Shown in pieces: positions 2,079 to 12,635 of a DNA stretch of 30,416 nt. The position numbers and the translations under genes are program-made. Each line of letters begins with the position of its first letter. Position 1 is the stretch's first letter. The stretch is from a virus: the IMG/VR virus record IMGVR_UViG_3300006735_000135, positions 1 to 30,416 of that record. One strand, written 5' to 3'. Below the pieces are notes generated by a model, which did not search any database, had not been told where the DNA came from, and worked only from the letters and a program-made list of their open reading frames with translations.

Positions 2079-2660
2079 CTATTGTCTTCCATAGGTCTTA
2101 CAAGGATCCTGACCACAACCGCAATTCTTTTTGCGTTCTTTGACGATCTCAACTTCTTTACTATCGTCTAGGATGTAATCTTTATCTTCGTGCTGACCAA
2201 CGTTTGGCATTGCTTCTAGAGCCTTGATGATCTCCTTTTCCATGTCTTCTCCAAATTCTTTCAGAAATGGGTCCATACCGGCAGCACCACCTTCGTCGCG
2301 AAGAACTTTTTCAATACGCTTTGGGTCGACATGCACATAGCCTTTAGCAGCCATATCCTTGTGGGCTTGTTCTTTTTTGGCTATAAATTTTTCGCCTGTC
2401 TTTGGATCAAACATATCGTGAGTCTTGAATTCTTCGCTCAGTCCTTCACTTTTATTTCCCCAATTAGCAGCACCAACTTTACGACACTTCACAAGAGCAC
2501 CAGAGCCATAAGCCGAAGGCCACACTTTATAGCGTCTTTTCACCTTGTGATAACATGCGTCTTTCTTGCCTTTTTTCTTTTTCTTTTTTCGTTTCTTTTT
2601 CTCACCCAAGACTTCGTTAAGCATTTCTTCTATGAGATTGTACAATATTTCTTTTTTCAT
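2079..2660 (-). CDS. Lys-rich phage protein with CYHKVKRRYKVWPSAYGSG-type motif
   Basis: A 193-residue protein. It begins with an amphipathic leader (MKKEILYNLIEEMLNEVLGE), followed by an almost pure lysine tract (residues 21-33). The conserved-looking block CYHKVKRRYKVWPSAYGSG...VKCRKVGAANWG (about residues 37-70) is, from memory, a widespread phage and giant-virus motif of unknown function. A mostly acidic helical region follows, then a C-terminal cysteine cluster (NCGCGQDPC). The start ATG overlaps the stop of the upstream membrane protein (ATGA), so the two are translationally coupled. With the 292-residue neighbour it makes a pair of basic, leader-bearing, Cys-containing proteins, possibly DNA-associated virion proteins. 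No enzymatic motif is visible. Confidence 0.75.
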   Translation of the reverse strand: MKKEILYNLIEEMLNEVLGEKKKRKKKKKKGKKDACYHKVKRRYKVWPSAYGSGALVKCRKVGAANWGNKSEGLSEEFKTHDMFDPKTGEKFIAKKEQAHKDMAAKGYVHVDPKRIEKVLRDEGGAAGMDPFLKEFGEDMEKEIIKALEAMPNVGQHEDKDYILDDSKEVEIVKERKKNCGCGQDPCKTYGRQ

Positions 2661-2932
2661 TTGTCACCCTTCATTCGCATCATTCGTTCTTCAGCATATT
2701 TTTCTCGCATTGTCTGAAGACCATCATCAATCTTAATTAGTGCCTTCTCGAGCATTTTTTCCTGATTTTCAAGCCTTGTTATGATGTTTTCTTGATAATA
2801 CCGTAATCGATCTGCTGCTCTTTCTTCATCTTCTTTTTGGTCTTTCCGCTGCTGCCAATTCATCCAAAGTAAAGATGCTGTCCACAGACCAAGTGGCCCG
2901 TATTGAGCCAGTCCTTCAATTATCGCCTCCAT
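2657..2932 (-). CDS. Small membrane protein with coiled coil (holin/UviB-like or i-spanin-like)
   Basis: A 91-residue protein. Residues 7-25 form a single hydrophobic, Trp-containing segment (GPLGLWTASLLWMNW). It is followed by a charged helical coiled-coil region to the end (QRKDQKEDEERAADRLR, then heptad-like repeats). A short N-terminus, one membrane span and a cytoplasmic or periplasmic coil is the layout of BhlA/UviB-type holins; inner-membrane spanins look similar. No endolysin is adjacent, so a lysis role is only inferred. ATG at 2932 is preceded by GGAGGG. The gene lies between the SprT-methyltransferase gene and the 193-residue gene in one transcription unit. Confidence 0.65.
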   Translation of the reverse strand: MEAIIEGLAQYGPLGLWTASLLWMNWQQRKDQKEDEERAADRLRYYQENIITRLENQEKMLEKALIKIDDGLQTMREKYAEERMMRMKGDK

Positions 2933-2962: not shown

Positions 2963-4042
2963 TTAGGATCTGAAGAGTCTTTCTTCCGCTTTATCGAAGA
3001 ATTCCTCGTCAAGTTCGCATCCGATGAAGCCACGACCCAAATTTTTGGCGGCGAGCAGCGTGGCTGCTGAGCCGGCGAATGTGTCCAATACCACGTCTGC
3101 GGGATTGCTATGCTTTTTGATCAAAGCCTCCATAAACGCCAAGGGTTTTTGAGTTGGGTGAAATCTTCCTTTCTCATGGCAAATAGGGAAGCGATACACT
3201 CCATTGTCGTATTTCGAATTAAACGTGGGTTTACTGACCTTTACGCCTAGGAGAGCGACTTCTCTAGCATTATTAAGATAATTCCTGCTGGAGTTAAGAG
3301 GTACGGGGTTTGTTTTTACCCATTCAATGAAACGGATTTGTTTAAACCCTGCTTCTTCCATGATTTGTTTTACGTCTGTAATTTTCCACAGATCACAAAA
3401 GATAATTGCCGTTCCGTGTTTCTTAAGAACGCGATAATATTCTTTTACAGAATCTCGCAAATCTTCCAGAGAAAAATTTTCGGCTTTGTCCCATTCTCCA
3501 TGTTCCGTTGACACAGCAAAACGTTCGACTCCATTCTTTACACTTTTGAAACCGGATGGCTTACTAATAATGTAAGGCGGATCAGTCAATACTAAGTCTA
3601 CAGATCCTTTTTCTAGTTTAGACATAAGCGAAAGAGAATCAGTGTGTTCAAAATCTTGTATCTCGCCTCGTATCATACGTAAAATCTCTTTGTATTCCTC
3701 GTCGGAGAAGAAATTAGTGCCATCAGTAAAACAGTCTGGGTTTTCGAAACCGACTTTCTTCATCTCCTCTATCCATTCAGGTCCGTGGCCATCGACAGTC
3801 ATTCCATACTCCTCGTAAACAACATGATGACACACCTCATGAAGTAATACTCCAAGCATTTGTCGCTCAGATAATCCTTGATTTTTTGCTAAATGGATAG
3901 TATTAACGCCCAACTCATCATGAACAAAGTCTCCAATCATATCATCATCCATATCTTTAAGAAACACAGGTATCGATCGATACTTCTGATTCCAGTACTT
4001 TCTCATAAAATAGTCAAAAGCGTAATTCCATATATAATTCAT
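2963..4042 (-). CDS. SprT-like zinc metallopeptidase fused to beta-class DNA methyltransferase
   Basis: A 359-residue fusion. Residues 1-95 are a SprT-like domain: HEVCH at 68-72 is the HExxH zinc site and HGPEW at 86-90 supplies the usual third histidine. Residues 130-359 are an amino-methyltransferase: DPPY at 154-157 is the catalytic motif for N6-adenine or N4-cytosine methylation, followed by a target-recognition stretch, HPTQKP at 295-300, and the SAM-binding FAGSAATLLAA and GCELD near 322-344. The catalytic-first, SAM-site-last order is the beta class. A longer reading frame upstream exists, but ATG at 4042 has TGGAGGACAA before it and a promoter at 4062-4090. The DNA substrate and any peptidase activity are unproven. 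Confidence 0.9.
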   Translation of the reverse strand: MNYIWNYAFDYFMRKYWNQKYRSIPVFLKDMDDDMIGDFVHDELGVNTIHLAKNQGLSERQMLGVLLHEVCHHVVYEEYGMTVDGHGPEWIEEMKKVGFENPDCFTDGTNFFSDEEYKEILRMIRGEIQDFEHTDSLSLMSKLEKGSVDLVLTDPPYIISKPSGFKSVKNGVERFAVSTEHGEWDKAENFSLEDLRDSVKEYYRVLKKHGTAIIFCDLWKITDVKQIMEEAGFKQIRFIEWVKTNPVPLNSSRNYLNNAREVALLGVKVSKPTFNSKYDNGVYRFPICHEKGRFHPTQKPLAFMEALIKKHSNPADVVLDTFAGSAATLLAAKNLGRGFIGCELDEEFFDKAEERLFRS

Positions 4043-4061: not shown

Positions 4062-4090
4062 AATGTAACTTGTTTTGTTGTGTTTGTCAA
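4062..4090 (-). promoter_or_regulatory. Sigma70-type promoter for the SprT-methyltransferase unit
   Basis: TTGACA (4085-4090), a 17-bp spacer and TACATT (4062-4067) on the minus strand. The -35 box lies inside the last codons of the upstream 67-residue gene. Confidence 0.8.
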
Positions 4091-4528: not shown

Positions 4529-4633
4529 TCAATAATCCCCCCAGTGACAATCACATGGATCGCAACCGCACACCTCACATTCATCACTCTGGTTGTGATT
4601 CGGCGTGAAGAGGGTATCCCATTTGTCTGGCAT
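4529..4633 (-). CDS. Possible Cys-rich 34-residue protein overlapping clpS
   Basis: A short open frame overlapping the last 50 bases of clpS in another frame. It reads MPDKWDTLFT... and ends in DECEVCGCDPCDCHWGDY: five cysteines and a histidine in 18 residues, a composition unlikely to arise by chance. A CxxCxC...CxC pattern suggests a zinc ribbon or knuckle. Its TGA is followed immediately by the TTG start of the next gene. The weak point is the lack of a clear ribosome binding site before ATG at 4633; translation could be coupled to clpS. Confidence 0.45.
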   Translation of the reverse strand: MPDKWDTLFTPNHNQSDECEVCGCDPCDCHWGDY

Positions 4634-4886
4634 ACATTGTAGTAGTTGAAACTTTTGTATCAGCAACTTCTTTAGAATAAACACCTGCTACTCCTTTTCC
4701 TTGTCTGTGTACTCTCATTGTGATTGCCTCTGCTTCGGGCAACCCCTTATTAAATACTTCTATTAATATCGAAGTGACCAAATTCATTGGTGTAAAATCA
4801 TCATTGTAGAAAACGACCTTGTATTTTTTTGGTCTATCTAATTTTTCTCTATTTTTTACTAGAGTGTCTTTTTGTTTCTTTGGCAT
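4584..4886 (-). CDS. clpS: ClpS, adaptor of the ClpAP protease
   Basis: A 100-residue protein covering the whole ClpS core. ClpS binds the N-domain of ClpA, delivers N-degron substrates and, in known systems, turns ClpAP away from ssrA-tagged proteins. Key residues align with E. coli ClpS: the YKVVFYNDDFTPM stretch gives N28, D29, D30 and M34 of the N-degron pocket, and RVHRQGKGVAGVYSKEVADTK gives H60. The N-terminal extension that blocks ClpA is present (about 20 residues, basic). Its ATG overlaps the thioesterase stop (TAATG) and uses a TTGGAG site inside that gene. Finding it in the same unit as a phage tmRNA is notable. It could redirect host ClpA during infection. Confidence 0.93.
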   Translation of the reverse strand: MPKKQKDTLVKNREKLDRPKKYKVVFYNDDFTPMNLVTSILIEVFNKGLPEAEAITMRVHRQGKGVAGVYSKEVADTKVSTTTMYARQMGYPLHAESQPE

Positions 4887-5296
4887 TATTTCTCCAACTT
4901 CTTCCTAATGTGTGGAGCAATGGGAACGGGCTCTCCGTCACCATCAATCCTGACAAAAACAACTTGACACTTACAAACTGGCTTTTGAGTTCCGTTGTAA
5001 ATACTGTGTCTTCTTGCCTCAATTTCAATCGTAACAGAAGTGTTACCGATCTTTAAACAACGTCCATAAATTTTTATAAGTTGACCCGGACGCACTGGTC
5101 TTTCAAAAGTTAAAGCCGAAATGTGTTTTGTGACCATCCGGCCTGTGTCAGCAATCTGGCATGCGAATGCTGCTCCTGCTTCATCTATCCAAGCAAGCAT
5201 TATGCCACCAAATAAATTTCCGTGATACCCCACTTGCTTAGCCATCACATAGTGAGTTGAAATCAACTGCATTTCTGACCATTTTGATGATGTCAT
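4886..5296 (-). CDS. Hot-dog-fold acyl-CoA thioesterase, YciA-like
   Basis: A 136-residue single hot-dog domain. The signature is at residues 15-45: HYVMAKQVGYHGNLFGG, then MLAWIDEAGAAFA. This corresponds to the N-x-x-G/F-G-G and D-x-x-x-A catalytic helix of the YciA/BACH group, which hydrolyses acyl-CoA thioesters as oligomers. TFERPVRPGQLIKIYG and SVTIEIEARR are the expected central strands. ATG at 5296 lies directly after the upstream stop, with AAGGAA as ribosome site. The length suits the family. The acyl substrate is unknown; a role in membrane lipid change during infection is speculation. Confidence 0.88.
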   Translation of the reverse strand: MTSSKWSEMQLISTHYVMAKQVGYHGNLFGGIMLAWIDEAGAAFACQIADTGRMVTKHISALTFERPVRPGQLIKIYGRCLKIGNTSVTIEIEARRHSIYNGTQKPVCKCQVVFVRIDGDGEPVPIAPHIRKKLEK

Positions 5297-11939: not shown

Positions 11940-12635
11940 CTACTCCTTGGATTGATATGCTTTTTCTGCTGAGTATACGCCAGTTTCATCGCCCATTGCA
12001 AGACTTGGATCGCCACTATTAAAGAAAGGGATCTGAAATTTCTTTCCGCCTATAGCACTAAACAAGTCTGGTGCGGCTTGAGCAACTTTACCAGAAACAA
12101 CTACGTCCCTATCATCTACAGCATAATACTCCTGTGGGCCAAATGCAGGTTCATCAGAACCATCTGGTTCGGTTTGATAATAAGTTAGTCTGAAGTAAAC
12201 GCTCTTTTGTCCTTCACGATAGTTTCTGACTAGTTTTTCTCCACCAATGACAGCGGCTTGACCGTATTTTTTTCCTAAATCAATTAAATCTTGTTTCTTT
12301 ATATTCAAAACAAAATAACTTGTTTCGTCCCCACCATACTTACCAGCAAGTTCAACATAATCTAAGCCTGCTGAATCCAAAGTGTTTCTAAGATCGGACA
12401 TTCTTTCCGCATTGCTAGCATCATCTGCTGATTCTCCCCTTGGGTTTTCTGCTGTTAATATGCCTACTCTCTGTAGTTCCGCTCGTGGATTGGGATCTCT
12501 TAGCATTCCCAAGACTTGATCTAAAGATAAATCAACTTGTTTTTCAATTAAATAAGGACTCTCAAGCAACACAGACTTTTGTCTGTTCTCAAGTATAACC
12601 TGTTTTATCATTTGTTTTAAATTTTCTTTATTCAT
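11940..12635 (-). CDS. DUF3293-like protein with leader peptide
   Basis: A 231-residue protein. Residues 1-30 form a leader (NKENLKQMIKQVILENRQKS) of the repeated phage type, ending at LLE-S. The middle resembles DUF3293: ILTAENPRGES (about 59-69), NAERMSDLRNTLDSAGLDYVELAG, then ETSYFVLNIKKQDLIDLGKKYGQAAVIGGE, the pattern of a TAxNP opening and a LGxxYGQxAV ending. An unrecognised beta-rich C-terminus follows. The molecular function of this family is not known to me. It overlaps the GroES-like gene by eight bases. Confidence 0.75.
   Translation of the reverse strand: MNKENLKQMIKQVILENRQKSVLLESPYLIEKQVDLSLDQVLGMLRDPNPRAELQRVGILTAENPRGESADDASNAERMSDLRNTLDSAGLDYVELAGKYGGDETSYFVLNIKKQDLIDLGKKYGQAAVIGGEKLVRNYREGQKSVYFRLTYYQTEPDGSDEPAFGPQEYYAVDDRDVVVSGKVAQAAPDLFSAIGGKKFQIPFFNSGDPSLAMGDETGVYSAEKAYQSKE

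Follow-up and report, generated by a model that had tools for sequence, protein, structure and literature searches.

Polyvalent proteins of phages and conjugative elements, a described precedent for the gene analysed here, combine a zincin metallopeptidase and an N6A DNA methylase in one polypeptide of a mobile element; they are larger, multidomain proteins whose metallopeptidases form clades of their own, described as having no specific relationship to the zincin clades defined earlier (PMC5512222). ArdC of plasmid R388 couples a Spartan-like metalloprotease domain with a DNA-binding domain in an antirestriction protein whose metalloprotease active site is dispensable for the protection of DNA (PMC7213743). 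For jumbo phages, SprT copies and ClpS have been interpreted as host-targeting (PMC7824862), and SprT-like and methyltransferase genes both occur in marine Charybdis elements (PMC12324425). The window analysed here, a viral record of 30,416 bases taken at its full length, carries a gene in which a SprT-like metallopeptidase is joined directly to a DNA methyltransferase. In contrast with the polyvalent proteins, its product is smaller, has two domains, matches the SprT-like family in Pfam and is encoded in a DNA-metabolism region; it differs from ArdC in that the partner is a methyltransferase rather than an ssDNA-binding domain, while ArdC has Glu as the third metal ligand. No description of a SprT-methyltransferase fusion was found in the open-access literature, which is consistent with the statement of an initial sequence-only reading that none was known, and the fusion looks undescribed. 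Joins of a zincin with an adenine methylase were known already, as were phage SprT and ClpS; what appears new is the compact two-domain protein made of a SprT-type peptidase and a methyltransferase.

The window encodes ribonucleotide reductase, a DnaB-like helicase, a UvsX-like recombinase, a T4-type single-strand-binding protein, ThyX and DNA polymerase, and gp23, the capsid protein of T4, is found in larger relatives (120-192 kb); on this gene content, the lineage is assigned to the T4-like phages. By helicase, no isolate is nearer than Microcystis phage Mel-JY01 (41% identity). A marine origin is inferred from marine-type genes and relatives rather than from sample records, and no photosystem D1/D2 gene was present in four relatives.

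The fused gene runs on the minus strand from an ATG at 4042 to a stop ending at 2963, comprising 359 codons for 359 amino acids, and the plus strand of the same interval is interrupted by stops; the coordinates of the sequence-only reading were right (Table 1). PF10263 (SprT-like) matches residues 40-100 (E 1e-8) with 35.4 bits, or 37.2 bits for the N-terminal half alone, against a curated cut-off of 25.6 bits, while PF01555 (N6_N4_Mtase) matches residues 148-354 (E 1e-37), likewise above its curated cut-off. Among the PHROGs, the methyltransferase half belongs with phrog_67 (2e-56), and the peptidase half gives a weak match to phrog_6361.

Table 1. Features of the fused locus in the window.
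Feature	Position	Strand	Basis or remark
Fused gene, SprT-like metallopeptidase and class-beta N6/N4 DNA methyltransferase	2963..4042	-	single open frame; two Pfam families above cut-off; kept in 8 other contigs
SprT-like domain, residues 1-127	3662..4042	-	HEVCH 68-72 and H86; lacks Cys4 zinc-binding subdomain; model and PDB match
Methyltransferase domain, residues ~130 to ~356	2966..3655	-	DPPY 154-157, FAGSA 322-326; profile and solved-structure matches
Junction RMIRGEIQDFEHTDS	3630..3674	-	aligns with ribosome-binding site and start codon of solo methyltransferase genes
Ribosome-binding site GGAGGACAA	4043..4051	-	abuts the ATG; same or nearly the same in all fused relatives
Sigma70-like promoter TTGACA-N17-TACATT	4062..4090	-	similar element in several relatives
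Phage ClpS (N-degron adaptor of ClpAP)	4584..4886	-	PF02617 8.6e-27
91-aa gene downstream of the fused gene	2657..2932	-	conserved neighbour, no family match

Both active sites had been described as intact. HEVCH, HGPEW, DPPY and FAGSA are present as stated, HGPEW containing the third metal-binding histidine, H86, downstream of HEVCH; H68, E69, H72 and H86 do not vary among 17 SprT proteins, be they fused, split or solo, and these residues together with DPPY are invariant in the six closest fused proteins and present in contigs L063 and L065 as well. The methyltransferase half displays the class-beta order, with motif IV (DPPY) before motif I. Its motif I, however, has Ala for the third glycine of FxGxG in the fused gene and most of the family, reading FAGSA or FAGAA across the fused set, whereas the solved methyltransferases compared have FMGSG or FFGVG, the position being Gly in M1.HpyAVI and CcrM. 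FAGSA is common to many solo phage relatives and is therefore taken as a family variant, so that an intact methyltransferase is likely but not certain. The half shares with M1.HpyAVI (5hfj), CcrM (6pbd) and the phage orphan methyltransferases of phrog_67 the order of DPPY followed by FxGxx and a strong profile and fold match, differing in the N-terminal protease and the FAGSA motif.

The SprT domain was modelled alone from 17 viral relatives, whether fused, split or solo, giving a pLDDT of 93.4. The PDB structures closest to this model are 6mdx and 6mdw, both of human Spartan (Foldseek E about 1e-3 and probability 1.00), followed by the archaeal selecase/minigluzincins. Superposition on 6mdw reached a VIA-align Z of 10.3 across 108 residues, a score far higher than those of unrelated zincins. 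The phage domain thus shares with Spartan/SPRTN and bacterial SprT (PF10263) the SprT-like fold and the HExxH plus third histidine, but differs from Spartan in having no zinc-binding DNA subdomain and no basic region, in its fused methyltransferase and in an identity of only ~18%. The alignment covers Spartan residues 41-156, which constitute the protease part, and ends at about 156. The zinc-binding domain that follows in Spartan binds ssDNA (PMC12279946); it has no counterpart in the phage SprT domain, and the methyltransferase occupies that position of the chain. Since the match stops there and the fused or split SprT domains, with one to three Cys, hold no Cys4 site, the modelled phage domain is classed as a SprT-like peptidase that falls short of a full SprT domain of the Spartan type. 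In the full-length model (pLDDT 80.8, pTM 0.63), the methyltransferase half lies nearest to M1.HpyAVI, MboIIA and CcrM, the same structures that are nearest by sequence; because the loops 163-169 and 246-258 of that half fall below pLDDT 50 and the pTM is 0.63, the domain geometry is not readable from the model. The domain search and structure prediction proposed at the outset have accordingly borne out both assignments, with a Spartan-like and an M1.HpyAVI/CcrM-like fold.

The join is genuine. An uninterrupted fusion was found end to end in five further viral contigs at 83-87% identity and in three more at 73-77%, two of which carry the same protein, which amounts to nine viral contigs or records and eight distinct proteins at one locus. 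The two outcomes that the sequence-only reading had named as fatal to it did not materialize: an assembly or frameshift artefact is ruled out by the open fusion in nine contigs, and relatives do not have separate genes only, fused and split forms both existing. For either half, pairwise dN is 0.05-0.19 whereas dS is close to 1 or saturated, and purifying selection therefore acts on both. Moreover, no conserved internal start with a ribosome-binding site precedes the methyltransferase part; most of the methyltransferase is therefore probably produced in fused form.

Outside this lineage, four phage records gave matches covering 80% of the whole protein, and searches of the phage collection with the SprT part alone and with the junction returned no fused record. 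No fusion was found in plasmids, no SprT half was found at the best 80 bacterial and archaeal methyltransferase loci, and narrow peptide patterns gave no SprT match in genome contigs. Several candidates were rejected: the "DNA methylase" of Serratia phage Kashira (ON287374.1, L050:2311-3573), a weak SprT match, is by Pfam a misannotated tRNA nucleotidyltransferase/HD protein; the weak matches in Gordonia PokyPuppy, Vibrio 104E43.1 and Pseudoalteromonas H105/1 have no fused SprT domain; and the SprT-like zincins in the L042-L044 records fall below the cut-off and represent a different HELCH protein.

The junction suggests how the fusion arose. In L065, the earliest-branching fused protein in the methyltransferase tree, the junction GGAGGAGAAATGGATATTTTT corresponds to the start GGAGGACAAATGAATATTTTT of the solo gene in L060, the codons GGA GGA GAA ATG, then GAT ATT TTT, of the former facing GGA GGA CAA ATG, then AAT ATT TTT, in the latter; the other fused junctions are a worn version of this ribosome-binding site and start. 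Because the start signal of the solo gene is here read as codons, the plain reading of the alignment is that two neighbouring genes would have become one by read-through of the second gene's start signal. In L062 the halves are split: the promoter is followed first by a SprT gene of 126 aa, next by GIY-YIG and recombinase/HNH-like frames and last by the methyltransferase, which has a GGAGGACAA-ATG to itself, while in L060 the methyltransferase stands solo behind the same promoter type and ribosome-binding site, with no SprT across the 58.9 kb contig. With one relative split and one methyltransferase-only, the fusion is evolutionarily labile. In the methyltransferase tree these two solo genes are nested in the fused clade, which suggests later loss or exchange; the AU test is also compatible with all fused proteins forming one clade (p 0.225), so that either loss or a separate origin may be at work. 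The SprT half of the window is nearest to L004/L005 (80%) and its methyltransferase half to L002/L036 (93%), a discordance that separate recombination of the two halves would produce. Directly before the fused gene in L065 lies a GIY-YIG homing-endonuclease-like gene, and GIY-YIG endonuclease-like and recombinase/HNH-like genes stand beside or between SprT and methyltransferase in L062:1583-2995 and L065:2057-2614, insertions suggesting homing activity at the locus.

These observations bear on whether the join has any function. Two independent activities may have been united by chance, adjacent genes having lost a stop and a start in a harmless join; the fossil ribosome-binding site, the split and methyltransferase-only relatives, the discordant half identities, as if the halves had been exchanged separately, and the abundance of standalone SprT and standalone methyltransferase relatives all point that way. 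This explanation is nevertheless considered unlikely, for the fused state is kept in nine of the eleven contigs of the lineage, at divergence down to 73% identity, and no conserved internal start would free the methyltransferase. Autoproteolytic release, in which the SprT half would cut at or near the junction and free the methyltransferase, has a parallel in the release proposed for zincin/metallopeptidase domains of polyvalent proteins (PMC5512222) and in the reported autocleavage of SPRTN (PMC7826251); the junction is short, however, with no obvious long linker, and in the split and standalone SprT relatives there is no attached methyltransferase to be freed, which makes this option very improbable.

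As for expression, a promoter similar to that of the window precedes the fused gene in L003, L004, L005 and L063, the split SprT gene in L062 and the solo methyltransferase in L060, and is absent before the fused gene in L002, L036 and L065. All fused loci examined, as well as L060 and L062, have a ClpS gene upstream; the phage ClpS shares NDD-TPM and VH-QGK with ClpS proteins of solved structure, its N-degron-binding motifs being conserved. A UV-damage endonuclease (UvdE) gene is found slightly downstream in L002, L036, L062 and L064. Elsewhere in the window, a 4HBT-type thioesterase gene (4886-5296, minus strand) is 97% identical in L004, with no blastp match in the other fused loci compared, and a gene for a DUF3293 protein (11943-12635, minus strand) adjoins ThyX, being 94% identical in L002 and 35-38% in L003 and L036, a divergence that looks as if the gene had been replaced.

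UV damage is met by surface marine phages, which, together with the UvdE gene close by in relatives and Spartan as the top fold match, would favour DNA-protein crosslink repair, the protease clearing crosslinked proteins as Spartan does and the methyltransferase mainly binding DNA or methylating repaired DNA. UvdE, however, is a neighbouring gene whose co-regulation would be an assumption, and it is very common in marine phage contigs lacking the fusion; lesions scattered at random, moreover, are hardly what a sequence-specific methyltransferase would be expected to target. This role is judged unlikely.

Beyond the directly observed fusion, conserved catalytic residues, purifying selection, Spartan-like fold and shared locus, the fused protein probably helps the phage to protect or clear its DNA during infection. 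The preferred reading, put forward tentatively and at somewhat less than an even chance, is that of an early DNA-protection enzyme whose methyltransferase marks phage DNA and holds the protease there, with disposal through ClpS/ClpAP being possible. The protein would be made early from its own host-type promoter, and its orphan N6-adenine methyltransferase half would modify phage DNA against restriction. The same half would bring the compact SprT protease onto DNA, replacing the missing zinc subdomain of Spartan, whereupon the protease could cut proteins on phage DNA, such as host restriction enzymes, nucleoid proteins or crosslinked proteins, and the neighbouring ClpS may pass the cleaved fragments to host ClpAP. 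The roles originally suggested, a protease placed at DNA by the methyltransferase and the removal of restriction enzymes, are plausible hypotheses. A stricter version, in which the methyltransferase guides the DNA-bound protease so that phage DNA is marked and restriction enzymes or other bound proteins are destroyed in one step, with the fragments handed by ClpS to ClpAP as a coordinated counter-restriction, is regarded as quite unlikely.

DNA protection is favoured by both domains scoring above their cut-offs, the invariant catalytic residues, the low dN, the promoter and ribosome-binding site, ClpS beside all fused loci examined, UvdE downstream in L002, L036 and L064, and the precedents of PMC5512222 and PMC7824862, as well as by the SprT part covering the protease part of Spartan, by the methyltransferase standing where the ssDNA-binding zinc domain would be, and by the missing internal start. 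Against it count the dispensable metalloprotease site of ArdC, the FAGSA rather than FxGxG motif, the low-confidence loops and pTM of the full-length model, the compact SprT proteins that stand alone in other viruses, and the split genes of L062 and lone methyltransferase of L060, which imply that the halves need not be joined. If the halves do cooperate, the protein would be a naturally occurring protease anchored on DNA by a methyltransferase, in effect a Spartan of bacterial viruses in which an enzyme has taken the place of the DNA-binding part. Its two domains would make it a simple means of testing whether phages degrade restriction enzymes or clear DNA-protein blocks on their own genomes, with the fused, split and SprT-less forms of the locus as ready natural controls. 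Compact standalone SprT-like proteins of 115-157 aa that lack the Cys4 subdomain occur in other marine viral contigs (L145-L152), in whose records no methyltransferase of the fused-gene type was found; the methyltransferase is therefore not a required substitute for the zinc subdomain. Judged by eye, L145 and L146 also have a GMP reductase/IMP dehydrogenase-like gene close by.
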